From NCBI GenBank assembly GCA_022841345.1, contig JALHRR010000010.1:1-64000 (forward strand): a DNA stretch of 64,000 nucleotides, written 5' to 3'. The stretch comes from Saprospiraceae bacterium. Lineage in GTDB: Bacteria > Bacteroidota > Bacteroidia > Chitinophagales > Saprospiraceae. Positions within the stretch are counted from its first letter, which is position 1; the number at the start of each line of letters is the position of its first letter. The position numbers and the translations under genes were made by a program. Shown here one piece after another: positions 36,757 to 47,289 of the stretch. The notes beneath the pieces were generated by a model. That model searched no databases. It was not told the DNA's origin and was given only the letters and a program-made list of their open reading frames with translations.

Positions 36757-37275
36757 TCGAGGTTTAATGCCTTCCGGCATATTTCAAGTTCATATCACAT
36801 GATTACTTTTAATAATATTGATTTACCCCTCCGGATTTCATTTCTTCCATTTGACGCTCATTTATAAAAACACCATCAGGAGTTTTCACCACCTCATTTG
36901 GCTCGTTTCGCGGTCTCTGACCCGAAACACATCGTCTGCAAGTCTCCGACTTGTACTATACTTGGCTTATGCTCCATCGCTACTACACTATCAATCATTC
37001 TGGCACTATTTCTTATTTCCCCGAAGCGGGTAAAATGTAAATACCCCGTGCAATCGCAGCGCAGCTTGGGGTAGCTCGGGGTAGAATAGCCCCCACAAAG
37101 AACTCCGTAGGTGTACAATCAAAAGGCTGTTTTTCGGCTGTTCAATCTGAAAACTGATCCCCAAAGCTTTGGGGACTGAAAACTGACATCTGAAATCTTC
37201 ATGCCCCGCAGTGTTACTTAAAATCGAATGTCAACATTTCGGGGACGGGGTCTAGAGCAAAATTATCCAACTTTC
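36757..37275. repeat. Spacer with further REP-like words and the 18-bp palindrome
   Basis: No gene. CCCCGAAGCGGGTAAAATG, TACCCCGTGCAATCGCAGCG and AAGAACTCCGTAGGTGTACA (about 37020-37120) are a worn third version of the repeat. GGCTGTT occurs at about 37123 and 37134. TCCCCAAAGCTTTGGGGA (37158-37175) is flanked on both sides by CTGAAAACTGA, as at 5.4 kb. Confidence 0.65.
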
Positions 37276-38691
37276 TTAATCCGGAAATATCTTCCCCGGA
37301 TTCAGAATCCCTTTCGGATCAAATACCGCTTTAATTCCTTTCATCAGATTCAATTCCACCTGATTAAACATAATAGGCATATAGTTTTTCTGAACATAGC
37401 CGATACCGTGCTCGCCGGAGAGGGTTCCATTCAAGGATTTAACTACCTGAAAAATTTCAACGATCCCATCCTGAATCACATTATTCCACATTTCGTCTGA
37501 TAATTCCTCTTTTACGATATTTACATGAAGGTTACCATCACCTGCATGGCCATAACATACTGAGCGGAATCCATACTTTGCTCCTATCTCTTTCACAGCT
37601 CTGAGCAATGTTGGTAATTCCGCCCGGGGAACGACAGTATCCTCTTCTTTATAAATAGAGTTGAGCTTGACTGCATGTGCGACATTTCTCCTTAAGCGCC
37701 ATAGTTCCGTTTTCTGTGCATCATTGTCGGCGAAGAGGATTTCACCACATCCAAAGCCCTCTACAACTTCTGTTATCTTTTCACAATCAGAAAATAGCTG
37801 ATCCATGTGATTGCCATCCACCTCAATCAATAAATGAGCCTGGACTTCTGGGCCGATATCCAACTGAACATCCTTGAGATATGCCACTGCCCAATCAATA
37901 GCTTCCCTTTCCATGAACTCCAAAGCAGATGGAATCACTCCGGCTCTGAATATTGCAGATACAGCAGCACAGGCATTTTCTGAAGAATTAAATGGTACTA
38001 ACAAGAGCAGGTTAAAAGGAGGATCCGGTAATAATTTTAGGACTATTTTGGTAATGATTCCTAAGGTTCCTTCACTACCCACCATCAGTTGGGTGAGATT
38101 ATAACCAGTAGAATTTTTCAGGGTATTGGCTCCTGTCCAAATGATTTCACCATTAGGAAGTACTACCTCCAGGTTTAGAACATAGTCTTTGACTACTCCA
38201 TACTTGACAGCTTTTGGGCCACCAGCATTAGTAGCCACATTCCCGCCGATGAAACAGATTCCGCGGCTGGAAGGATCCGGTGGATAAAAGAGACCGTATT
38301 CTTTTACTTTATTTTGCAGAACTTCTGTGATAACTCCAGGCTCTACAGTGACTTGCAAATTTTTCTCATCGATCAGAAGAATTTGATTGAATTTTTCCAT
38401 TGAAATCAACAAACCAGCCTTGACAGGTAATGCTCCTCCTGCTAATCCGCTTCCAGCTCCCCTAACAGTAACATATATGTTGTTCTCGTTGGCATAGCTC
38501 ATGACTTTGCTGAGTGCTTCTACTGTATGGGGTATAATAACTGCATCAGGAAGAAACACAAAATCCTCAGTCTCGTCATGACCGTATTTTGCCAGCGCTT
38601 CCGGATCTGAATAAATAGTAATATCGCCGGAGAGCATTAAAACTTCATTAAGGTCAGGCTTAATTGACAGGCTTTCTAAAGTAGAATTCAT
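37276..38691 (-). CDS. FAD-linked oxidase, GlcD / D-lactate dehydrogenase type
   Basis: 471 residues. FAD_binding_4 domain: VTVRGAGSGLAGGALPVKAG near 74-93 is the FAD pyrophosphate loop, and CFIGGNVATNAGGPKAVKYG near 146-165 the second FAD contact. The C-terminal FAD-oxidase domain ends with the conserved YGHAGDGNLHVN (near 370-381), GEHGIGYVQKNYM and DPKGILNPGKIF. Such enzymes oxidise D-2-hydroxy acids (glycolate, D-lactate, D-2-hydroxyglutarate). No Fe-S partner subunit is adjacent, so the D-lactate type is favoured. Confidence 0.92.
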   Translation of the reverse strand: MNSTLESLSIKPDLNEVLMLSGDITIYSDPEALAKYGHDETEDFVFLPDAVIIPHTVEALSKVMSYANENNIYVTVRGAGSGLAGGALPVKAGLLISMEKFNQILLIDEKNLQVTVEPGVITEVLQNKVKEYGLFYPPDPSSRGICFIGGNVATNAGGPKAVKYGVVKDYVLNLEVVLPNGEIIWTGANTLKNSTGYNLTQLMVGSEGTLGIITKIVLKLLPDPPFNLLLLVPFNSSENACAAVSAIFRAGVIPSALEFMEREAIDWAVAYLKDVQLDIGPEVQAHLLIEVDGNHMDQLFSDCEKITEVVEGFGCGEILFADNDAQKTELWRLRRNVAHAVKLNSIYKEEDTVVPRAELPTLLRAVKEIGAKYGFRSVCYGHAGDGNLHVNIVKEELSDEMWNNVIQDGIVEIFQVVKSLNGTLSGEHGIGYVQKNYMPIMFNQVELNLMKGIKAVFDPKGILNPGKIFPD

Positions 38692-38777
38692 TGCTTATTT
38701 TCTCGGGAGTTGCAACTGATACAACTTGATTAAAGATGTGATTTCAGTGCAAAGTTAAGCTATAAAATAATGCGCTA

Positions 38778-38860
38778 TCAATCAAAAGGATTTTTGAATG
38801 CAGGATTATTTATAAATGCAGTATCGGTGAGGGTATTTAGAAACTTAATCAACTTATCCT
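38778..38860 (-). pseudogene. 3' remnant of a di-heme cytochrome c peroxidase gene
   Basis: The last 26 codons before the stop at 38778 read KLIKFLNTLTDTAFINNPAF then KNPFD, closely matching the C-terminus of the peroxidase at 42274-43392 (FLLTLTDSTFITNPEFSNPFD). The codons upstream in the same frame (to 38975) have no heme motif or peroxidase similarity and run into the outer-membrane gene. So only the tail of a third peroxidase gene survives at the end of this cluster. Confidence 0.7.
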
Positions 38861-38907
38861 TTTCAGAAGCTGAGACAAGGATAGCCCAATAAGATGAATT
38901 CTTCTTT

Positions 38908-39828
38908 TTACAACTCATGAAAATATTGAATAGAAAATAAACCAGTTGGATAGGGCTGATTTTCGGGAAGTACATTTTTAATTGGTTTTAGATATTGAAC
39001 ACTGAATATAGATTGCTTATACTTTATATCAAATCTTAAAATTCCATAATTCACTCTGCCCCCTGTATTTTCTTCAAGCTCAGAAAACAAGCTGTCCTTT
39101 TCAATAATATCCCAGCGCATACCCAGATTTAAATTAAACTGGATTGAGCCGACATTTGACATGTAAAACCCTTGAATTGAGTTATTATAAGTATTACCCC
39201 AACTATAACCCAGTTCATTTGTACTGAAAAAATGCATTTGGGATTCTGCTTGTGCCCCCCAATGTTCATTATGTATAAAGAAATTTAGCGAAGGTCTTAA
39301 CCCATAACTTCCCCTTCCTACCTGGAAGTTTGGAGGCAAAATCTGGGCGTGGAGATCACGTTGTTGATATTTACCGGTTGGCAGGACAAGGCCTGCTCCA
39401 GCCCAGAGTCCTAATTTCCAATTTCCCCACTTATGGTCAATGGCTTCATAATTGAGCATGACAGACAAATCTCCCAATCCATTAATACTGGAAGTTCCCG
39501 CATCCTCCATCCTTTGATGAAACTTCAAAGGTAACTGGAAAACCAACTGCCATCTTTTTGCGAATCTTGTTCTATAATTCAAATCTAAAGAGTGCATCCG
39601 GTCTTCATAAACTCTGCTGTTCCCATTCATAGAGGCCTCAACATTATTATGAATAAACCTGTTGAACTGATAACCAGCTCCATAAAAAGGACTATTAATT
39701 CTGCTCATTACACCAGATTGCATAATGCTGATGCCGCACCCACATACATCACAAGCATTAACTTTTGATGTGGAAAAACCTGCAAATAGAAATATTAGTC
39801 CAACATAAAGTCTATATTTATTTTTCAT
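38908..39828 (-). CDS. Outer-membrane barrel protein with N-terminal CDVCGCG motif
   Basis: 306 residues. Signal peptide (about 1-25), then CDVCGCGISIM right at the mature N-terminus, then alternating beta-strand segments typical of an outer-membrane barrel (LDLNYRTRFAKRWQLVFQLPLKF, LGDLSVMLNYEAI, LGLWAGAGLVLPTGKYQQRD) ending in a terminal aromatic strand GLFSIQYFHEL. The LPTGKY phrase is common in transporter-type barrels. The Cys pair could bind a metal. Its ATG overlaps the stop of the upstream peroxidase by 4 nt (ATGA), so the two proteins are probably made together. Confidence 0.8.
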   Translation of the reverse strand: MKNKYRLYVGLIFLFAGFSTSKVNACDVCGCGISIMQSGVMSRINSPFYGAGYQFNRFIHNNVEASMNGNSRVYEDRMHSLDLNYRTRFAKRWQLVFQLPLKFHQRMEDAGTSSINGLGDLSVMLNYEAIDHKWGNWKLGLWAGAGLVLPTGKYQQRDLHAQILPPNFQVGRGSYGLRPSLNFFIHNEHWGAQAESQMHFFSTNELGYSWGNTYNNSIQGFYMSNVGSIQFNLNLGMRWDIIEKDSLFSELEENTGGRVNYGILRFDIKYKQSIFSVQYLKPIKNVLPENQPYPTGLFSIQYFHEL

Positions 39829-40856
39829 TTTTTGAATGGATAATCAGGTTTTGAATAGTATGGATTTCGAGTCAACCTGTAGTCAGTCAGCGTCGTTAAA
39901 AATTCTTTGAGTTGAAATACTTCTTCATTGCTTAAACTCATTGACTTCAATCGGGGATCAAGATTCACTATTTCTTTATTTGCAAGTGATTGATAATGCG
40001 TCAAAACTGCATCCAGATCACCCAAACTTCCATCTGTCATATATGGTGCACTAAGTGATATATTTCTGAGTGAAGGCACCTTGAACCGGTTTATGTCTTC
40101 CGGCTTTTGTGTAACTAGAGCTCTTCCCTGATCAGACACAAAATAACCATTGAAGGCAAAAGTATGATCCGTAAAAAGAGGCAAAGAGTGGCAGCTCGAG
40201 CATTTAATTTTAAACACTTCAAATCCAAGCCTTTGCGATTCATTCCTCCAGGTTTGCTTCCCGGTCTGAATACTGTCAAATGCACTATTAAATGAATTTA
40301 GTTTTGATTGGAAGGCAGCTAAGGCGAGGAGTAAATCTCTGTCAGTAATTGTATCTTTTCCTGTAAGCTCAGAGAATCTGCTTCTGTAATAAGCGTGACT
40401 ATTAAGTTTTAAATTCACCTGAGCCATAGTGATGCCCATTTCCAAACTATCAGATATAGGGGCTATCGGCATTGTCTCGAGGTGAATGATTCCACCATCT
40501 CTCATATATGATGGACTATATGAAAGATTAAACAATGGAGGACTGTTTCTCCTTCCCAATTTCCCCTGAATTCCTTTACTTAAATCACTATCATCTGAAA
40601 AGGCTAGGTCAATTTTGTGGCATGAAGCACATGAGATTGTAGAATCCAGCGAAAGCACAGGGTCGTAAAACAGTTTTCTTCCTAGTTCATACCAGTGGTA
40701 ATGCTGATCGGGATATGGAAATTCATATTGTTTTTCCAAAAAGCCTGAAGGGGTATCTTCGAAGATAGGATGATCCCCGGTTGAATTTTCAACCTGGTTG
40801 CATGAGAAAAATAGTGTGGGCACGAAGGCCCACACCAATAAACTCCTAAATTTCAT
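39825..40856 (-). CDS. Di-heme cytochrome c peroxidase / MbnH-like lipoprotein
   Basis: 343 residues. Lipobox LFFSC (Cys19), then two class I heme sites: CASCH at 76-80 and CSSCH at 219-223. RRNSPPLFNLSYSPSYMRDGG near 102-122 and VPSLRNISLSAPYMTDGSLG fit the MauG/CCP/MbnH group. In methanotrophs, MbnH oxidises a Trp of its partner MbnP; the gene just upstream is an MbnP-like protein with overlapping stop/start (TAATG), which favours MbnH function over simple peroxide removal. It acts in the periplasm or at the outer membrane. Confidence 0.9.
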   Translation of the reverse strand: MKFRSLLVWAFVPTLFFSCNQVENSTGDHPIFEDTPSGFLEKQYEFPYPDQHYHWYELGRKLFYDPVLSLDSTISCASCHKIDLAFSDDSDLSKGIQGKLGRRNSPPLFNLSYSPSYMRDGGIIHLETMPIAPISDSLEMGITMAQVNLKLNSHAYYRSRFSELTGKDTITDRDLLLALAAFQSKLNSFNSAFDSIQTGKQTWRNESQRLGFEVFKIKCSSCHSLPLFTDHTFAFNGYFVSDQGRALVTQKPEDINRFKVPSLRNISLSAPYMTDGSLGDLDAVLTHYQSLANKEIVNLDPRLKSMSLSNEEVFQLKEFLTTLTDYRLTRNPYYSKPDYPFKK

Positions 40857-41626
40857 TAATTATGAATATGATCCAGCACAAACATATTTGCTATATTATC
40901 AGCTAACTTCAAAGCATTTTCACCGGGCATATGCAGTCTGACCATATCTTTTACATTAATAGGATGCACTGTATTTTGATACATTTTGTCCACCTGAATG
41001 TGCATATGCACAGAAGGTGCTCCATCCGGGCGTGCTCTAAGATCCTGGCCAAAATTAAATGTCATTTCTCTGACAGCAGAATTCTCAGGTCTGAAACCAC
41101 CAACATGGTGGATGAACGTCTTATTATCATCTGCAATTTGCTCACAACTACCTTCAGATTTGATAAAAATATATCCAGAATTCCAACTCCAGAACATGTC
41201 ATTCGAAGGGCTCAATGCCCCTTCCTGTGCACCTGAAACATTTCTGGTAGAGTCAACTCCGAAATTAAACTTAATGTCTGTGTATTCTCCTGTTGGAGCA
41301 TCGCTGATTACAATTACCGGAGCAGTTTTTCCTGCATCAACTATGTGATAGCTTTCAGGTTGGGCCCACCAGGTTCCATTTTTAGCTTTTAGCTGAATAT
41401 TACTTATATAATATTTGAATTGCGTAAACTTAAGTGATTCACCATTAGGCAGCGTATAAATTGTAACAGAATCAGCCCTGAAGCTTTGTGTGAGAAATTG
41501 GTGATCCATCTTAAGTGTTACTGATCCTTTTGTATTATTGTGATCATCATCAACATCATGTTTGTGACAAGCGGAAATGACAAGCATTGTTGACATTAGA
41601 AATAGAAATAAAAAATTATTTTTCAT
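40856..41626 (-). CDS. MbnP-like copper-binding lipoprotein
   Basis: 256 residues from the ATG at 41626 (MKNNFLFLF, signal ending VISAC); an ATG 11 codons earlier is less typical. A HKHDVDDDHNN stretch follows the lipid-anchor Cys. The MbnP domain is recognisable from FTQFKYYISNIQLKAKNG, DMFWSWNSGYIFIKSEG (the W-x-W region next to the GYxF strand), HHVGGFRPEN and the later VHMHIQVDKMY. In studied homologues a Trp is converted to kynurenine by MbnH and helps bind copper. The gene ends inside the start codon of the di-heme gene. Confidence 0.82.
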   Translation of the reverse strand: MKNNFLFLFLMSTMLVISACHKHDVDDDHNNTKGSVTLKMDHQFLTQSFRADSVTIYTLPNGESLKFTQFKYYISNIQLKAKNGTWWAQPESYHIVDAGKTAPVIVISDAPTGEYTDIKFNFGVDSTRNVSGAQEGALSPSNDMFWSWNSGYIFIKSEGSCEQIADDNKTFIHHVGGFRPENSAVREMTFNFGQDLRARPDGAPSVHMHIQVDKMYQNTVHPINVKDMVRLHMPGENALKLADNIANMFVLDHIHN

Positions 41627-41767
41627 TTTGTGAAATTGATATTGTGAAAGTAAGTGCACATATGTACATTACTTTCCAGTTTAAAATTGAAAGCGACCTC
41701 AGCATAAGCATCCATTAGTCTGGAAAATTAATTAAATGCTCTACTCAGAAGTTATAATTAAAGTCAA

Positions 41768-42187
41768 TTAGCAGAGAATTGGCTCTTGCGGGGGTTTCAA
41801 CAATCTACTGAAATGGAATTTAGAATGCATATCAGAATACATGAAATTCCTTTGGTTATCAGACTTAGAAATAAGACTGATCGGACTGAAACTGTTCTTT
41901 GATAAGAAAACAGGTATTTCCAATTGATAAATAAAATTCGGTATGGTACTCTCTCTTTCCCTCTCCTGCTCTTTTATTTTCTCAATAGCCTGCATAAAAA
42001 AGCACTGGCCATTGCATTTTAGTTCGGGTCTGTCTTTGTTCACACAATGTTCTTCCGTGATGTTCTGTCGATTTATATGAAAATACGCAATAAATCCAAT
42101 TTTGAACATACCCGGACCAACCAAGATCAGTGCTAACAATAAACTGAAAGCAAATTTATACAAATTAATTTGAAGGTTGGTGCCCAT
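41768..42187 (-). CDS. Small membrane protein with Cys motif (possible metal handling)
   Basis: 139 residues. N-terminal membrane helix (about 10-31), then INRQNITEEHCVNKDRPELK followed by CNGQCFF near residues 39-63. This C-x2-K-x2-P-x-L-x-C-x-G-x-C pattern recurs in uncharacterised Bacteroidota proteins found beside copper or TonB genes. A charged helix (KIKEQERERES) and a tail ending KPPQEPILC follow. It lies between the two peroxidase/MbnP groups on the same strand. Function not established; copper binding is inferred from context and the Cys pattern. Confidence 0.65.
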   Translation of the reverse strand: MGTNLQINLYKFAFSLLLALILVGPGMFKIGFIAYFHINRQNITEEHCVNKDRPELKCNGQCFFMQAIEKIKEQERERESTIPNFIYQLEIPVFLSKNSFSPISLISKSDNQRNFMYSDMHSKFHFSRLLKPPQEPILC

Positions 42188-42273
42188 TCTTATTTATAAA
42201 CTAATACAAAATTATCTCTTTTGTTTAAATCATAAACTAAAATCAAATCTATTCATTTGTCAAATTCCCACCA

Positions 42274-43392
42274 CTAATTGTCAAAAGGATTGCTAAATTC
42301 AGGATTAGTAATGAATGTGCTGTCTGTCAAAGTCAGTAAAAACAGTTTGACTTTTCGTTTATGATCTTCATTCAAATTGGTTCTTTTCAAGTCACTTATT
42401 AATGGATCCTTTCTGGGATTTTCCTGACCACCGCTGCCATAATGATCCAGTACACCATCCAAATCAGAAATCCTTCCATCATGCATGTAGGGAGCCGTAA
42501 CGGCAATATTCCTTAAAGTTACAGCTCTGAATTTGCCTTTATCTGATTCGAATCCAGTAAAATTAAATCTTGTTTCGGTTTGATTTTCTTCTTCAGTTGT
42601 CAGTAGACCATTATGAAAAAAATTGTCCAGTGCAAATATCCCAATAGTAGCTTTATGGCAATGATCACATTCCGCATCTGCCAAAATACCACTTGCACCA
42701 TCAATGAACATGGTATATCCTTCGAATTCATCATTGGTCAAATCCAACAGTTCTTGTCTGATAAATTTGTCAAATTTCGAATCCGCACTTACTAAAGTCC
42801 TCTGAAATTGGGCTAAAGCTTTTGCTACCAACTCTTTCGTAATTTCTTTGTTGTTTTTTATGCCAAAGGCTTTCCTGAACATTTCATGATAGCCAGAATG
42901 CAGCTGAAGTTTCCGAATGACATTTGGCCATTTTTCATCCATTTCGTTGGGATCCTCCACAGGGTGTAATGCCTGAATTTCGAGAGTAGACACTCTTCCC
43001 TCCCAAAACAGGCCACGATTTGCAAATCCAACATTAGCAAGGCTCATTGCGCTTCGCTTTCCAACCCTTCCATCTATTCCTATGCTTTTTGCAAGTCCAT
43101 CTGTAAAAGCCAACTCTTGTTTGTGACAACTAGCACACGAAATACTGGAATCACGTGAAAGAATCGGATCATAAAAAAGAAATCTGCCTAATATTACACC
43201 TTCTTTGGTTGTAGGATTATCCGAAGGAATTTCCATTTTAGGAAATAAAGGGGGAATTAGTATAGGATGAGAAGTGGGATCAAAAGCTATGCCCTGAAGA
43301 TCAAAAAGCGGCACATCACTATTTGGATCTTCTTTTTTACAAGATGAAAAAGTAATAACCACTATGACAACAAAAAGAGTAACTATTTTCAT
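42274..43392 (-). CDS. Di-heme cytochrome c peroxidase family lipoprotein
   Basis: 372 residues. Lipobox TFSSC (Cys18). Heme sites CASCH at 86-90 and CDHCH at 242-246. RSAMSLANVGFANRGLFWEG near 113-132 and LHPVEDPNEM near 142-151 are classic bacterial CCP features, and TLRNIAVTAPYMHDGRISDL near 300 is the second-domain motif. The C-terminus LTLTDSTFITNPEFSNPFD also appears as an orphan fragment at 38.8 kb. First gene of the minus-strand cluster; the Cys-motif membrane protein follows after 86 nt. Confidence 0.92.
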   Translation of the reverse strand: MKIVTLFVVIVVITFSSCKKEDPNSDVPLFDLQGIAFDPTSHPILIPPLFPKMEIPSDNPTTKEGVILGRFLFYDPILSRDSSISCASCHKQELAFTDGLAKSIGIDGRVGKRSAMSLANVGFANRGLFWEGRVSTLEIQALHPVEDPNEMDEKWPNVIRKLQLHSGYHEMFRKAFGIKNNKEITKELVAKALAQFQRTLVSADSKFDKFIRQELLDLTNDEFEGYTMFIDGASGILADAECDHCHKATIGIFALDNFFHNGLLTTEEENQTETRFNFTGFESDKGKFRAVTLRNIAVTAPYMHDGRISDLDGVLDHYGSGGQENPRKDPLISDLKRTNLNEDHKRKVKLFLLTLTDSTFITNPEFSNPFDN

Positions 43393-43947
43393 TTAACTAG
43401 TTGATTATGATAACTTGTCTTGCACAAAATGCGAGTTGTATTAACTTCATGCATAGATACGCTTATAACGCCTTTAAAGTTCAATATCATATTGTTAAGG
43501 AAGAGAAATATTGGTAAAAAGAGATTGATGGTGTGAGTTGGAGTGAGATGAGTGTGAGTGTGGGTTAGATTGAGAAGATTGTCGTGCGGGTGTTGTGTTG
43601 AAGTGAGTGAGTGTGTGAAGATTGATGGGATTGAGATAAATCAAGCCCATTTCAACAAGTTAGGGACATGCCTACATATGTTTCGGGTCATGAGACCGCG
43701 AAATGGGTGAGGAAATTGAAATTCGGCTTTTTTTAAATTTGATGTTTTAATGGCTGTTCGGCTGTTTCATGCACCAATTCACCAACTCTGCAATTCGGCT
43801 GTTAATTGGCTGTTCAACTGGCTGTTAATTTTCAACTTTCCTCTTTCAACTTTCAACTAAACAAGGCTGTCCACATACCCCTTTTTACTGACTACTTATC
43901 CCTATTTTGGCTGTTTCAATTTTCAACTTTCAACTTTCAATTTAGCT
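43393..43947. repeat. Low-complexity spacer, GT-rich then GGCTGTT words
   Basis: No gene. About 43525-43640 is rich in GAGTG/GTGTG and contains GAAGATTGATGGGATTGAG, the reverse-complement style of the G-poor spacer at 22.1-22.4 kb. From 43735 come GGCTGTT at about 43753, 43760, 43799, 43811, 43823, 43864 and 43908, and TTTCAAC tandem words (about 43830-43945). Confidence 0.6.
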
Positions 43948-44778
43948 TTACTCTTCAACACTTATAAACGCTTCAATATTACCATACAATTTCTCAGATA
44001 CCACCTGGTCTGAATCCACATCAAAATCAATCCCTGCTATCAAATCTCTAAAATTTAATTCTAAAACAATAGTCCTGTCTACTCCCCTGGTTGAAGTAAA
44101 ATTGATATCTCTTTCAATAAGAAAACTATTTGCATCACCTTTTATGATAAAGGTTCGCACTATATCGGTCTCCTGAAAATACATAACTAGTTTGAGAAAA
44201 ATGTAACCACCATCTGGAGTCAGTGTATGGAGACTATCTGATACTTCTCCAAGAACTGAACCCAGGGGATAATCTTCAACAGGGCCGTTGTTGAGCTCAG
44301 CATCCAGTCCAAATCTGAAACGCAGCTTTTCAAACATTCCGGTATATGGGAATAAACCTGCACTAGAGGAAGGACTGTTTCTTCGGATTATATTAATATT
44401 TCGAACCTGAATTGTCGAGTCCAGATCCGGATTCCTGCTGTAAATTTTTAATGAATCTTCTCCGATGATAAAGTTGCCATTTTGGACAAGTCCGACATCA
44501 GAAATGTACATAGCAAAGTTTCTGAACTGGATTGTATCTCCATTTTCCAATGTATAATTGACACCCAAATTAAAATTTGGCATAGTGTCATTATCGTAGA
44601 AATATCGATAGCTTAATATCAGCTGTGGATATGTACAGCAGCAATCTTCATCCGCAGCCGCATCAAAATTTGTGGCTTCCAAATCCAGACAGCCTTCACT
44701 TGGATCCTGGCAGGCAGCTACAGCAAATATCAGAAAAACCAAATAGAAAAAACTATGCTTTTTTATGCGCATCCTCAT
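43948..44778 (-). CDS. Diverged MbnP-family lipoprotein
   Basis: 276 residues. Lipobox AVAAC (Cys23), then a GCLDLEATNFDAAADEDCCC segment resembling the short Cys/Asp repeat common in Bacteroidota surface proteins (GC-D-x-ATNF-D..C.Y). The MbnP-like domain follows: IQFRNFAMYISDVGLVQNG, LRFRFGLDAE and HTLTPDGGYIFLKLVMYF. Where the MbnP in the neighbouring cluster has FWSW, this protein has TLTPD, so the candidate modified Trp is missing. It starts inside the end of the exonuclease gene (26-nt overlap). Confidence 0.7.
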   Translation of the reverse strand: MRMRIKKHSFFYLVFLIFAVAACQDPSEGCLDLEATNFDAAADEDCCCTYPQLILSYRYFYDNDTMPNFNLGVNYTLENGDTIQFRNFAMYISDVGLVQNGNFIIGEDSLKIYSRNPDLDSTIQVRNINIIRRNSPSSSAGLFPYTGMFEKLRFRFGLDAELNNGPVEDYPLGSVLGEVSDSLHTLTPDGGYIFLKLVMYFQETDIVRTFIIKGDANSFLIERDINFTSTRGVDRTIVLELNFRDLIAGIDFDVDSDQVVSEKLYGNIEAFISVEE

Positions 44779-45577
44779 ACTCCTTTACAAGCTTTTTCAC
44801 TGCTTGTTTTACTTGTTGGGAAAACTCCTTTTCCAGTATCCAAAAATAATATTGCTTGTCCCTGGCCAGTGATTCTGCTACAGGAAGACCATTATATTTT
44901 CCAAAATTAAAAATTACCACACCGTTATGATCATATTTCAATCTCTGCGTGGCATCAATCATATTAGGATCAGAAGTGAATTCATAAATTACCTGCATAT
45001 CATTCTTGACAGGCTGAGGCACTACATTTCCATCTTCATCGATCATGTCAACATTCTGATAACGATCTAACTGACCTTTAAATACATCGATGGTAGCTTT
45101 AACATCTGCCAGAGCATCGTGTGCATTCTCCATTTCCTGATTGCAATAGAACTTGTATGCCGCTTTCAATGTGCGGGGCTCCATTTTGTAGAAAATACGC
45201 TGTATATCAATCGTCCTGCGGGAATCAACATCAAATTCGATTTCTGCTCTGTGAAATTCTTCAAGCAACATAGGAATATCAAATCTGTTGGAATTGTATC
45301 CTGCAAGATCTGCATTGCCTATAAAATCAAAAATCTTCTGAGAAACCTGGATAAATGTAGGTTTGTTAGCTACCATCTGGGGAGTAATTCCATGGACCGC
45401 CATTGCTTCCTCAGAAATAGGAACTCCCGGATTAATGAGCGTTTCAAATTCTACCGGATCGCGTCCATCTTTGAAATATTTGATCATACCGATCTGAACG
45501 ATTCGATCCCGCAATACATGAAGGCCTGTAGCTTCCAAATCAAAAAATACCAAATCATTGGTCAGATTAAATTGCAT
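44753..45577 (-). CDS. DEDDh 3'-5' exonuclease (DnaQ/epsilon-like)
   Basis: 274 residues. The DEDDh catalytic set is visible: FFDLEATGL near 12-20 (Asp, Glu), AGYNSNRFDIPML near 92-104 (Asp), and HDALADVKATIDVF near 153-166 (His, Asp). The C-terminal part (about 185-274), with GVVIFNFGKYNGLPVAESL and YYFWILEKEFSQQVK, is a small domain seen in Bacteroidota exonucleases with this arrangement. It processes or proofreads DNA or RNA 3' ends. It overlaps the MbnP-like gene by 26 nt and follows the doxX-like gene by 3 nt. Confidence 0.92.
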   Translation of the reverse strand: MQFNLTNDLVFFDLEATGLHVLRDRIVQIGMIKYFKDGRDPVEFETLINPGVPISEEAMAVHGITPQMVANKPTFIQVSQKIFDFIGNADLAGYNSNRFDIPMLLEEFHRAEIEFDVDSRRTIDIQRIFYKMEPRTLKAAYKFYCNQEMENAHDALADVKATIDVFKGQLDRYQNVDMIDEDGNVVPQPVKNDMQVIYEFTSDPNMIDATQRLKYDHNGVVIFNFGKYNGLPVAESLARDKQYYFWILEKEFSQQVKQAVKKLVKEYEDAHKKA

Positions 45578-45580
45578 AAT

Positions 45581-46000
45581 TTACTTTTTAATGAGCGCAT
45601 CCACGCTCCATTTACCCGGGCCGGAAAAAAGCAAAGCTACGAAAATCACGGCATACATGGCTGCCAGTTCTATTTCCTCAACGGGGTCACCAGCATGCAC
45701 TACAAATAATATTACCAGCATTGTGACGATCAATGGTATGACAGCCAGACGAGTAAATAGTCCCAGGATCAGTAGTGCTGAACATAAAAATTCAGAGAAA
45801 ATGGCTAAGATCAGTGAATTGAATTCTCCAATACCCAAAGGGTCTCCAAATTTAATAGGCCCATTACCACTAAGTTTCATCAATTTTGGATAACCATGCT
45901 GCATCATCATCAATCCGCCACCGATGACCCTGAGTAATAATGCTGCTAAATCAAGACTCAATGGTTGTATGCCCAGAATGGAGTTTTTTCGCTTTGTCAT
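45581..46000 (-). CDS. DoxX-family membrane protein
   Basis: 139 residues from the ATG at 46000 (MTKRKNSILGIQPL); an ATG 14 codons earlier gives an odd N-terminus. Four membrane helices; ALLLRVIGGGLMMMQHGYPKLMKL near 18-41 and SALLILGLFTRLAVIPLIVTML are DoxX-type. DoxX-like proteins are quinone-associated or redox-related membrane proteins; the role here is unknown. The stop is 3 nt before the exonuclease start codon, so the two are probably co-transcribed. Confidence 0.85.
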   Translation of the reverse strand: MTKRKNSILGIQPLSLDLAALLLRVIGGGLMMMQHGYPKLMKLSGNGPIKFGDPLGIGEFNSLILAIFSEFLCSALLILGLFTRLAVIPLIVTMLVILFVVHAGDPVEEIELAAMYAVIFVALLFSGPGKWSVDALIKK

Positions 46001-46042
46001 CGTTTTCAGATTTTGATAAAGAATGAAGATTGCAATATTCAA

Positions 46043-46389
46043 TACGAACTTAAGTCTTTTGCAAATCGAAATCGATACTTATGTAATATTTTTTTAATAT
46101 TAAAGTGATTTCTACCCGCTATTATGCCCCATGCAATTAAACCCTTTTCTGATATTTTACATATGAAATGAATTAAGAGAAAATAATTTCAAACAATAAA
46201 ATCGAAAGGCTATTGTGAATAGTTGGAGCATTATCTTATTTCTCAATTGATTAAATACTATAAAAAAATTGCATTTAATATTCCAAAGCCAATACCAAGG
46301 GTAACACATTAATTGTCAATGTAATATGAAAAAAATGTAGCATCATTATTGCAGGACTCTGCGATATAAGATGTGAAAAACTAAATAGT
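46043..46389. other. AT-rich spacer, nothing recognised
   Basis: About 350 bp, AT-rich, between divergent genes (doxX-like on the minus strand and the GNAT-like gene on the plus strand). I see no TAnnTTTG box with a convincing upstream partner and no repeat of the families described elsewhere. Confidence 0.5.
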
Positions 46390-47289
46390 ATGAAGTTTGA
46401 TTTTCTACCCTATACACTGACCCGCGAGGATAGAATTGCAGAATGGCTTGAAGATAAATCCATTCCATTCCTGAGACACGATGGAATCATTTGGTACAAA
46501 GAAATGAATATTGCCCAACCACTGGCACCATTTTCTACCAAGATTCAAATGAGTCCGGCTGACAGCACAAATATTCTCCAGAAGCTGGATGCCGGAACAC
46601 TGCGCTACACAAGCAAGCTCAGCCAATCAACTAAAATTAAAAACACGTATTATATAGTCAGTGCACTTCAGCCCATATTTTTGGAAGATTTGGATCCTGC
46701 ATCCCGAAAAGAAATAGAACTGGGTATGCGGCTATGCACAGTTAGAAGAATTGAATCCGGAGAAATAGCCAGAAATGGCTGGTTGATCCAGATGAGACAT
46801 CAGTCGGCTTTGGAGGATTACCGGTCATTGTTGTTCTTTAAAAATGAGGAAGATTTTATAGAATTTGTCCTTCCTGAGAGTAAATATGATGATGTTATTC
46901 ACTATTTTGGAATATACTACGGCTCCCGTTTGATTGGATTTAGCAGATGCCTGAATCTCCCTTCCAACGAAGTTCATATCACCCATATAGCAATAGATCC
47001 TGCTTATCAGGGTTACAGGTCTATGGAAGCGCTCAACTGGTTTATGATTCAGTATTATATGGAATGTAATGACGCTAAAACTATTGTTTCATGCGCAAGA
47101 CCCATGGATCCCACCTCCACAGAGCAGGATTTCTATATCCAGTCGCTCAATTTTGAAAAAATCTCATTAGACTTAAAAGTCGTATTCAGAAGAAACCTGT
47201 CCAGACAAATTCCTTTCGGTATACCTTTCAAAAAAGTCAGCACCAGAATTCATCCTTCCATGCATACTATCTCACCAGTCCAAATGTAA
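46390..47289 (+). CDS. GNAT-like protein of unknown function
   Basis: 299 residues. The N-terminal half (about 1-130) is not recognised; FLRHDGIIWYKEMNIAQPLAP and RRIESGEIARNGWLIQMRH stand out. The C-terminal half (about 170-270) reads as a GNAT fold: IYYGSRLIGFSRCLNLPSNE, then HITHIAIDPAYQGYRSMEAL as the acetyl-CoA loop strand, and QDFYIQSLNFEKISLDLKVVF as the closing strand. The loop lacks the usual Gly-x-Gly/Ala, so acetyltransferase activity is uncertain. No signal peptide. It stands alone. Confidence 0.55.
   Translation: MKFDFLPYTLTREDRIAEWLEDKSIPFLRHDGIIWYKEMNIAQPLAPFSTKIQMSPADSTNILQKLDAGTLRYTSKLSQSTKIKNTYYIVSALQPIFLEDLDPASRKEIELGMRLCTVRRIESGEIARNGWLIQMRHQSALEDYRSLLFFKNEEDFIEFVLPESKYDDVIHYFGIYYGSRLIGFSRCLNLPSNEVHITHIAIDPAYQGYRSMEALNWFMIQYYMECNDAKTIVSCARPMDPTSTEQDFYIQSLNFEKISLDLKVVFRRNLSRQIPFGIPFKKVSTRIHPSMHTISPVQM

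Follow-up and report, generated by a model that had tools for sequence, protein, structure and literature searches.

Two described systems with leader peptides come closest to the locus analyzed here: CruR, an upstream ORF of Bordetella pertussis (DUF2946, PF11162), and CutF. Operons that begin with a CruR homolog are reported to contain TBDT, PepSY_TM, Sco, PCuAC, and MbnPH-like genes (PMC9426467). For CutF, the corresponding study describes sensing of copper outside the cytoplasm and gives a list of 5,334 CutF-like proteins, 19% of them from Bacteroidota (PMC9973294), which may already hold the protein family described below. A 2025 survey of RAPP/RGPP leaders reports TonB-related leaders in Gram-negatives generally and lists Bacteroidota with the groups in which copper genes lack leaders of this kind (PMC12992588). 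In our literature search, no paper was found on copper uptake by Bacteroidota via genes such as those considered here, nor any experimental work on the family of small cysteine proteins to which one of them belongs.

In the present locus, from a Saprospiraceae bacterium, such a small protein (the Cys protein) is encoded ahead of an MbnP protein, a di-heme enzyme (CCP2), and a barrel protein. We lean towards the view that Cys-MbnP1-CCP2-barrel would be a copper-acquisition operon under translational control by a copper-responsive leader peptide.

Gene layout of the locus

The window (the whole stretch of 64,000 nucleotides that was analyzed) carries five genes at 38778-43392, all on the minus strand and all confirmed. 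The di-heme, Cys, MbnP, di-heme, and barrel genes listed in the preliminary description are present on one strand, as are the overlaps claimed for the last three genes (TAATG, 1 nt; ATGA, 4 nt), WSW in MbnP1, and CDVCGCG in the barrel. MbnP2 and the remnant of a third di-heme gene were both absent from that description; the latter fragment explains why its interval starts at 38778.

43948..44778, minus strand: MbnP2, PF20243 match of 36 bits, without WxW, outside the conserved module
42274..43392, minus strand: CCP1, 372 aa, di-heme enzyme of MbnH/MauG type; bridging Trp (FWEGR) and axial Tyr present
41768..42187, minus strand: Cys protein gene, 139 aa, proposed copper-sensing leader peptide (uORF; alignments A1, A6)
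40856..41626, minus strand: MbnP1, ATG start, predicted lipoprotein with W146-S-W148 and H174
41183..41191, minus strand: WSW motif of MbnP1 (WxW...Y is common in MbnP proteins)
39825..40856, minus strand: CCP2, 343 aa, di-heme enzyme of the conserved module with Arg (YMRDGG) in place of the bridging Trp
38908..39828, minus strand: barrel, 306 aa, predicted FapF/COG4313-type outer-membrane channel with N-terminal CDVCGCG tail
39736..39753, minus strand: CDVCGC at the mature N-terminus of the barrel, both CDxC Cys invariant in alignment A2
38778..38879, minus strand: C-terminal fragment left from a third di-heme gene, 33 codons, ending ...NNPAFKNPFD*

MbnP1 matched PF20243 with 168.2 bits (MbnP2, 36 bits; Pfam cut-off 27), and scored 46.2 bits against the copper-binding equivalog TIGR04052, below the cut-off of 140. 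Its structure model (pLDDT 92.4) aligned with the solved MbnP 7L6G at Z 17.4 and 3.0 Å over 208 residues. WxW...Y was present in 50 of 66 MbnP proteins shorter than 350 aa. WxW was looked for in MbnP2 and was absent, and a quick tree grouped this protein with three WxW-less MbnPs belonging to the other locus type of the same family (SH-aLRT 96). A GTG at 41659 is a possible alternative start for MbnP1. The top MbnP match is that of locus L233 (Owenweeksia).

The barrel showed a weak Phenol_MetA_deg match (23.8 bits; Pfam cut-off 22), and its predicted structure (pLDDT 87.8, tail residues 1-15 below 50) matches an outer-membrane channel of the FapF/COG4313 type, the 20 best PDB folds all being FapF or COG4313 channels (TMq 0.66-0.72). 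Such channels are barrels of 12 strands; the model has 13 strand elements. The two Cys of CDxC are invariant among the 25 barrel sequences of alignment A2. Of 53 barrel calls from the named loci, 48 contain the motif, and some of those lacking it have truncated starts.

Features of the Cys protein

A Pfam search with the Cys protein returned no family match. The family occurs in 79 of 198 sampled Bacteroidota genomes, and its members were grouped into 80 clusters at 60% identity for counting. The following elements were located in the window copy.

42207..42214, minus strand: TAATTTTG, TAnnTTTG match (Bacteroidota -7 element) upstream of the proposed leader gene
42002..42046, minus strand: CVNKDRPELKCNGQC, proposed Cu(I) site (C48, C58, C62 of the Cys protein)
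41789..41794, minus strand: codons of Pro132-Pro133, where stalling is proposed, 6 residues ahead of the stop
41627..41767, minus strand: gap from the proposed leader's stop to the MbnP1 ATG, 141 nt, without TAnnTTTG element

Members carry the motif CxN..CxGxC, with C48, C58, G60, and C62 invariant in 30 sequences (A1), and 121 of 125 have a hydrophobic (export) helix, called as such and not by a signal-peptide predictor. Near the C-terminus lies a Pro-Pro pair, which is invariant in 24 sequences (A6), is placed 1-4 residues from the end in 115 of 125 proteins, and, in 79 of 80 clusters, is part of the final 15 residues (controls: 20 of 522 for small genes, 45 of 2,540 for others). The pair is mostly preceded by FH or FR (F[HR]PP); the window copy reads LKPP. 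The distance from CxGxC to PP is 67.1 ± 2.8 residues (78 clusters) across sequence that is itself unconserved, which makes the idea of a translational arrest directly testable.

Between the Cys gene and the next gene, the median gap is 117 nt (74 clusters), compared with 1 nt in 131 MbnP-CCP pairs and -4 nt in 60 CCP-barrel pairs. TAnnTTTG, which we take to be the consensus of the Bacteroidota -7 element, was found within 200 nt upstream of the Cys gene in 41 of 80 cases (100 shuffles: mean 12.4, maximum 20) and was depleted in the gap that follows it (1 of 77; shuffles: mean 8.7, minimum 2). RNA folding of the gap was no stronger than that of controls (median z -1.98, n = 110, versus -2.02, n = 100). 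Several copies of the Cys gene were present in 21 of the 79 genomes having the family, and each of the tandem clusters L098, L109, and L110 contained its own copy, as is expected of a cis-acting element. Most MbnPs lacking a Cys gene have no comparable leader: any leader candidate was observed for only 9 of 75 (control: 28 of 1,302 genes).

The preliminary description had seen the Cys protein as a component of a possible copper route. Its co-occurrence with the other genes holds up; as to its role, a regulatory leader peptide seems likelier than such a component. That it is instead an ordinary, stable, membrane-anchored copper chaperone, binding Cu(I) on three Cys while the rest of the operon stays as described, appears unlikely. 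The helix and the invariant Cys fit an anchored chaperone, and being the first gene is by itself no proof of regulation, but a chaperone leaves unexplained why PP sits so close to the C-terminus, why the spacing is nearly fixed, and why a long promoter-depleted gap follows and one copy is kept per operon.

The conserved module and its di-heme enzymes

Judged by sequence and gene order, the Cys gene, MbnP, di-heme enzyme, and CDVCGCG barrel are a conserved module in many Bacteroidota. Strong barrel matches (E below 1e-40) in the 198 genomes adjoin MbnP in 22 of 25 cases (21 of 24 without the window), and the remaining 3 of 25 adjoin a Cys gene; the strict order Cys-MbnP-CCP-Barrel was seen in 35 of the best 80 named MbnP loci. 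The MbnP/MbnH-type cluster of the preliminary description, which was to be abandoned if its genes did not co-occur in other genomes, is sustained in this respect: both the Cys protein and the barrel accompany MbnP elsewhere.

Both di-heme enzymes matched CCP_MauG (Pfam; CCP1 189 bits, CCP2 147 bits), and neither reached the MbnH cut-off of 362.85 (TIGR04039; 262.5 and 175.1, respectively). The best PDB sequence match of CCP1 was 6e1c (E 5.6e-47), presumably MbnH. CCP1 and CCP2 each contain two CxxCH motifs and an axial Tyr instead of Met; this Tyr is found in 67 of 69 named relatives, and Phe in 4 of 72 enzymes of the sample. At the bridging position, CCP1 has Trp and CCP2 has Arg. In the named loci, Trp occupies this position in 63 of 69 enzymes that adjoin MbnP or barrel, and among the 21 module enzymes of the sample it was Trp in 15, Tyr in 3, and Phe, Ala, and Arg in 1 each. 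Because CCP2 is without the bridging Trp, Trp-to-kynurenine conversion of MbnP1 is uncertain.

The preliminary description had combined two oxidases and two extra Cys proteins into a single copper route that extends to the outer membrane and includes conversion of a Trp of MbnP to kynurenine. We regard this as improbable, even though all genes lie on one strand, CCP1 keeps Trp and Tyr, and MbnP1 keeps WxW. Two oxidases are no feature of the module, given that a second di-heme gene was present in only 2 of 21 barrel loci (L077 and the window; sample loci fetched, window included); moreover, CCP1 groups with five B-type rows (tree support 99/95), that is, with another locus type, and the bridging Trp of CCP2 is lost. 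CCP1 and MbnP2 both resemble that other locus type.

Neighbors of the Cys gene

Twenty-six Cys genes (L206-L232) were fetched irrespective of MbnP or barrel, and 23 of them have a TonB-dependent receptor downstream. TonB receptors are commonplace in Bacteroidota. Across the 80 clusters, downstream versus upstream counts were 24/2 for the TonB receptor, 9/4 for SCO1, 5/1 for YtkA, 4/0 for PCuAC, and 3/0 for PepSY_TM; those for MbnP (48/1) and barrel (48/0) are inflated, since most loci were found via them. A copper-type gene of any kind lies downstream in 75 of 80 clusters and is lacking in 5, with ascertainment partly via MbnP. The link to copper drawn in the preliminary description is strengthened by SCO1 and PCuAC as neighbors and by a TonB receptor beside the Cys gene of L109 that matched the copper-receptor model TIGR01778, although at 81.5 bits it stays far below the cut-off of 472.

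It is quite improbable that copper export or detoxification is the task of the operon, with MbnP and the Cys proteins sequestering excess copper and the barrel releasing it. Metal-export neighbors do exist: a ZntA-like ATPase upstream of the Cys gene in L106, a CDF-like gene (assigned by reading its sequence) at L193, L194, and L197, and, next to an MbnP-MbnP-CCP locus that has neither Cys gene nor barrel (L125), a CusA/CzcA efflux pump. CutF-like leaders, too, are reported to be often upstream of efflux genes (PMC9973294). However, TonB receptors, YtkA, SCO1, and PCuAC, which usually lie downstream where MbnP is not part of the locus, fit supply, and CorA/MopE pairs, functionally similar although not markedly like MbnP in sequence, are reported to be down-regulated by copper (PMC3621798). 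L108 has a gene comparable in length to the ZntA-like ATPase gene of L106.

Least credible, we think, is that the window copy is decaying, with a fast-evolving, Trp-less CCP2 no longer modifying MbnP1 and CCP1 or nothing substituting for it: among 72 end branches, that of CCP2 is the longest (2.05; median 0.38), the enzyme has Arg at the Trp position, and the third di-heme gene is a remnant, but CCP2 retains both CxxCH motifs as well as its axial Tyr and distal Glu, the genes overlap without frameshift, and the enzyme of L233 (Owenweeksia) also lost the bridging Trp while its cluster was kept.

Proposed mechanism

If the Cys protein is a leader peptide, its nascent chain would thread into the Sec channel, and the ribosome would slow or stop at Pro-Pro, few codons ahead of the stop. 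The last Cys would then be ∼67 residues from the peptidyl-transferase center. The ribosomal tunnel plus the translocon has roughly this length, which would place the Cys motif on the periplasmic side, and sensing would lie outside the cytoplasm, as is reported for CutF. When copper is scarce, the stall would keep the message open, and MbnP, di-heme enzyme, and channel would be made; Cu(I) bound to the three Cys would relieve the stall and thereby shut off the downstream genes, the sign reported for CruR (PMC9426467, PMC12992588). MbnP1 would bind Cu(I), and a di-heme enzyme (CCP1, less likely CCP2) may oxidize the first of the two Trp in WxW. Copper could cross the outer membrane through the channel, whose CDxCGC tail would offer it a docking site in the periplasm; from there SCO1/PCuAC, for which some relatives have genes close by, could carry it to cytochrome oxidase.

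More broadly, we put forward tentatively that Bacteroidota may own a family of copper-sensing arrest-peptide leaders, unrelated to CruR in sequence and missed by RAPP searches, which would read periplasmic copper during export and control most copper-acquisition operons of the phylum, one of them with a new outer-membrane copper channel docking copper on its CDxCGC tail. As a copper leader, the Cys family would fill the Bacteroidota gap in the RAPP/RGPP survey, and its operons point to a candidate outer-membrane copper channel.

Comparison with known systems

The barrel shares the fold of FapF/COG4313 channels (5o65, 4rl8; PF13557; TM about 0.7), from which it differs by the N-terminal CDxC(GC), its copper gene neighbors, and an identity of only 11-16%. 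With MbnP/MbnH of Methylosinus trichosporium (7L6G; 6E1C), the window has in common the MbnP fold, WxW, and an adjoining MauG-type di-heme enzyme; it adds the barrel and the putative leader gene, remains below the NCBIfam cut-offs, and has Arg in CCP2.

The published rules for CutF-like proteins (PMC9973294) are a length <150 aa, an export signal, PP in the last 15 aa, and a same-strand neighbor at <1000 nt; the window Cys protein has 139 aa, PP 6 from the end, a 141-nt gap, and, as signal, a hydrophobic helix. CutF itself contains CxxxC, and because the genes downstream of the Cys family look like acquisition or supply, the expected sign of regulation is opposite to that of CutF.

No sequence relation between the Cys family and CruR was detected: the PF11162/DUF2946 profile recovered none of 30 members with an E limit of 0.05 and had no match in the window's own genome, and a profile comparison with five Bacteroidota DUF2946-like proteins gave a probability of 0.24 percent. 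The two differ in motif (CXXC in CruR, CxN..CxGxC here), in the residues around the proline pair (RAPP versus mostly F[HR]PP), and in spacing (45 versus about 67). Nevertheless, both head copper operons, with an export signal, a Cys metal motif, Pro-Pro near the extreme C-terminus at a conserved spacing, and a long gap to the next gene, and both share the downstream families TBDT, PepSY_TM, Sco, PCuAC, and MbnPH-like.

Gene content of the cluster

The five cluster genes of the preliminary description are present on the minus strand, with overlaps of 1 nt and 4 nt, and its di-heme and MbnP identities agree with Pfam, which gives CCP_MauG for both di-heme proteins, CCP1 (42274-43392) and CCP2 (39825-40856), and MbnP for the lipoprotein (MbnP1, 40856-41626). 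The barrel (38908-39828) has a weak PF13557 score. The 139-aa Cys protein (41768-42187) has no Pfam match, and its assignment to any Pfam or NCBIfam family was rejected, no match being credible (best, DAN at 0.001). Further features are as follows.

43948-44778, minus strand: MbnP2, an MbnP-family gene lacking WxW and with a CCC run near the N-terminus, upstream of CCP1
42214-42207, minus strand: match to the -7 element before the Cys gene, TAATTTTG
38778-38879, minus strand: di-heme gene remnant of 33 codons directly after the barrel, aligning to the C-terminal ends of other di-heme proteins

Judged by this alignment, the remnant is the C-terminal piece of a third di-heme peroxidase gene and a trace of past rearrangement. 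The intergenic stretch between MbnP2 and CCP1 (43400-43940) carries the repeated words ttgaaagttgaaag and cagcca, and an Rfam search of 37000-46500 gave no match at gathering score. A DoxX-family gene near the cluster (45581-46042) matches the copper-RiPP maturation protein HvfX with 59 bits, below the cut-off of 80.

Conservation of the module

A sample of 198 genomes of the phylum of the window, taken to be Bacteroidota on the basis of the named loci described below, was searched. PF20243 was found at 71 places in 51 of the 198 genomes, of which 65 were fetched and six left out. With E below 1e-40, the barrel profile (A2) matched strongly at 25 places; the Cys-protein profile (A1) matched at 105 places in 79 genomes, 21 of them with two or more. 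Weak matches may be missing from both counts, since in many genomes not all first-look candidates were scored. The preliminary description would have been contradicted by genes lying apart in other genomes; they co-occur, as 22 of the 25 strong barrel places, including the window, lie within ∼3 kb of an MbnP gene, and the remaining three adjoin a Cys gene. Gene order was compared in named loci, which are the best 80 of 553 confirmed MbnP-profile matches in genome contigs (L-numbers denote loci of this set and of the sample alike); family labels throughout come from profiles built for the analysis and checked against Pfam/NCBIfam on single representatives. The strict order Cys-MbnP-CCP-barrel occurs in 35 of these 80, among them loci of Pedobacter, Hymenobacter and metagenome-assembled Bacteroidota. 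Because this order is so frequent, that of the window is the common one, except for CCP1 at its head. Chance co-location is ruled out by the 22 of 25 adjacent barrels together with the 35 of 80 strictly ordered loci. In many Pedobacter loci among the best 80 of 553, SCO1 is encoded one to three genes further downstream; since Pedobacter accounts for 23 of the 80, Cys-gene statistics were calculated on clusters at 60% identity. Leader, MbnP and CCP genes are also carried by a 'Glaciecola amylolytica' record (L239, CP034120.1), which may be mislabelled; spread to Gammaproteobacteria is not claimed from it, as its flanking genes look Bacteroidota-like.

MbnP and the di-heme enzymes

The structure prediction proposed in the preliminary description was run for MbnP1; the model (pLDDT 92.4) has the fold of the solved MbnP 7L6G, the six chains of this M. 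trichosporium protein being its six best matches (Z 17.4, 3.0 Å over 208 residues). In the work of Manesis et al. of 2021, M. trichosporium MbnP is said to bind Cu(I), and MbnH reportedly turns the first Trp of WxW into kynurenine. The pattern WxW...Y is present in 50 of 66 MbnPs (MbnP-labelled proteins of at least 350 aa were left out), and G123, G151, G159 and H174 are invariant in those 50; the constancy of W146, W148 and Y152 follows from the selection, as the 50 sequences were picked with this pattern.

The best PDB match of CCP1 is 6e1c, which we take to be MbnH. Both CCP1 and CCP2 keep two CxxCH motifs and a Tyr at the position of the axial Tyr of MauG (Tyr294), and CCP2 has Arg at the site of the bridging Trp of others. 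Of 69 enzymes encoded next to MbnP or a barrel in the named loci (best 80 of 553), 63 retain this Trp, as do 15 of the 21 module enzymes in the sample; in the other six the residue is Tyr (3), Phe, Ala or, in the window, Arg. The top MbnP match among the best 80 of 553 (L233, Owenweeksia) has Ala. As the Trp is mostly kept elsewhere and replaced by Arg in CCP2, modification of MbnP1 by CCP2 is doubtful, and CCP1 appears to be the better candidate. The sample contains eight MbnP-CCP-CCP arrays (leaving out L107, with the order MbnP-CCP-MbnP-CCP); the Trp is missing from the first CCP in seven and present in the second in all eight; one array is in the genome of the window itself (L118, G000:C14:16100-30800), with Arg in the first CCP and Trp in the second. 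This arrangement suggests a division of labour between the paired enzymes.

A probable second locus type in the window

Two oxidases, taken in the preliminary description as part of the system, did not hold up as a conserved feature: a second di-heme gene is present in only two of 21 sample barrel loci, L077 and the window. Among the best 80 of 553 it also occurs in L237, L265, L272, L292 and L311 (Hymenobacter, Pseudarcicella). A careful tree built from 72 di-heme proteins places CCP1 together with five enzymes that come from four loci in the same family (support 99/95). An exonuclease and a DoxX-type gene, which the window neighbors at 44753-45577 and 45581-46042 resemble, are also present in three of these loci (L122, L125, L130), and MbnP2 clusters with the WxW-less MbnPs of those three (SH-aLRT 96, in a quick tree only). 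CCP2 belongs to a starred set of 35 rows, of which 17 lie next to a barrel, six next to a Cys gene only and 12 next to neither; its position is unsure because its end branch (2.05) is the longest in the tree. The simplest reading of these trees and neighborhoods is that in the window a piece of that other locus type is joined to the module.

The outer-membrane barrel

The 20 best matches of the barrel model (pLDDT 87.8, CDVCGCG tail of low confidence) are FapF and the COG4313 channel, with TM about 0.7. The two Cys of CDxC show no variation across the 25 aligned A2 barrels, and 48 of the 53 barrels called in the named loci (best 80 of 553) have the motif. As a family rule, a lipobox was rejected, the motif lying well past the signal peptide in L088, L091, L092, L094, L095, L098, L106 and L108. 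Because CDxC is thus internal in members with an N-terminal extension, it would serve as a metal motif and not as a lipid anchor. Barrels of L198-L200 have CAACGC, and those of L193-L197 and L205 are distant and without CDxC; all were scored as barrel in the Cys-gene neighbor counts. The distant ones, which follow a leader gene, start near GRPDGHA.I.VMGDH.H, with small variations, and are possibly a second type of copper channel (SCO1 and PCuAC lie downstream in L193-L197).

The Cys protein as a putative leader peptide

A hydrophobic helix is present in 121 of 125 Cys proteins (genes in relatives were called by simple open-frame picking, and some leader starts are too short), and the motif is C48, C58-x-G60-x-C62. 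In 79 of 80 Cys clusters, Pro-Pro is found among the final 15 residues, compared with 45 of 2540 other genes; it is preceded by His (40 of 79) or Arg (16), with Phe one residue further back in 53, and in the window the sequence reads LKPP. CxGxC and PP are 67.1 ± 2.8 residues apart, the sequence in between being otherwise little conserved (alignment A6). The gap after the Cys gene is long, and later genes of the operon abut or overlap. Using what we take to be the consensus of the Bacteroidota -7 element, matches are overrepresented upstream of the Cys gene (41 of 80; shuffled mean 12.4) and underrepresented in the gap that follows it (1 of 77; shuffled mean 8.7), these promoter and spacing statistics resting on 80 clusters still related to each other. 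A conserved RNA structure in the gap between leader and MbnP was dismissed, folding being no stronger than in control gaps, as was a leader for all MbnP genes, a candidate being found at nine of 75 MbnPs without a Cys gene versus 28 of 1302 control genes. On balance, these features favor a leader peptide. From the 67-residue spacing, and with the lengths of ribosome tunnel and translocon underlying this geometry, the leader would sense copper in the periplasm.

Copper-type genes lie downstream of the Cys gene in 75 of 80 clusters (60% identity), a count biased by most Cys loci having been found through MbnP, and seldom upstream. Forty Cys regions outside MbnP loci were fetched from the 105 places, 13 chosen for an adjacent barrel match (L193-L205) and 27 without that criterion (L206-L232); L230 gave no Cys call, which leaves 26 Cys genes in the latter set. 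A same-strand TonB-dependent receptor is downstream in 23 of these 26, in four with a YtkA-like lipoprotein in between, and in L219, L228 and L229 none of the neighbor families was found after the Cys gene. In five loci of one family, the genes after the Cys gene encode a distant CDxC-less barrel, SCO1 and PCuAC. On this entirely comparative evidence, the cluster is quite likely a copper module, and, because TonB receptors, YtkA, SCO1 and PCuAC are neighbors, it probably serves acquisition rather than export.

Comparison with known copper-sensing leaders

In open-access literature on MbnP families, CruR, CutF-like/DUF2946 proteins and Bacteroidota copper acquisition (titles and abstract openings, among the matches listed), no description of the module or the Cys leader family was found. 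A DUF2946 match for the Cys protein was not found either, and profile comparison of its family with five Bacteroidota DUF2946-like proteins ending in RAPP/RGPP revealed no relation. Four His-rich Bacteroidota DUF2946-like proteins end in SRAPP plus two or three residues (L319:6922-7245, L320:6991-7347, L321:6837-7220, L322:6914-7270); on reading the sequence, the genes of L320-L322 are followed by a small protein and an apparent TonB receptor, that of L319 by a CobW-like GTPase, and they are possibly zinc leaders.

CruR is described as an exported DUF2946 protein that stands first in operons containing TBDT, PepSY_TM, Sco, PCuAC and MbnPH-like genes; its CXXC senses copper and RAPP forms part of the arrest peptide (PMC9426467). 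Its arrest was demonstrated in vitro in PMC12992588, where TonB-related RAPP/RGPP leaders are reported across Gram-negatives generally and Bacteroidota are listed as one of the groups in which copper-related genes have no leaders of this kind. The CruR-headed copper TonB receptor of B. pertussis is the subject of PMC12914433. For CutF, with CxxxC and a proline-rich end, copper sensing outside the cytoplasm is reported in PMC9973294, along with a rule-based list of 5,334 CutF-like proteins; as 19% of these are from Bacteroidota, members of the Cys-protein family may already be in it. By the rules as given there, the Cys protein of the window is CutF-like, and it resembles CruR in its export helix, Cys motif, C-terminal PP, long gap and place at the head of copper-type genes.
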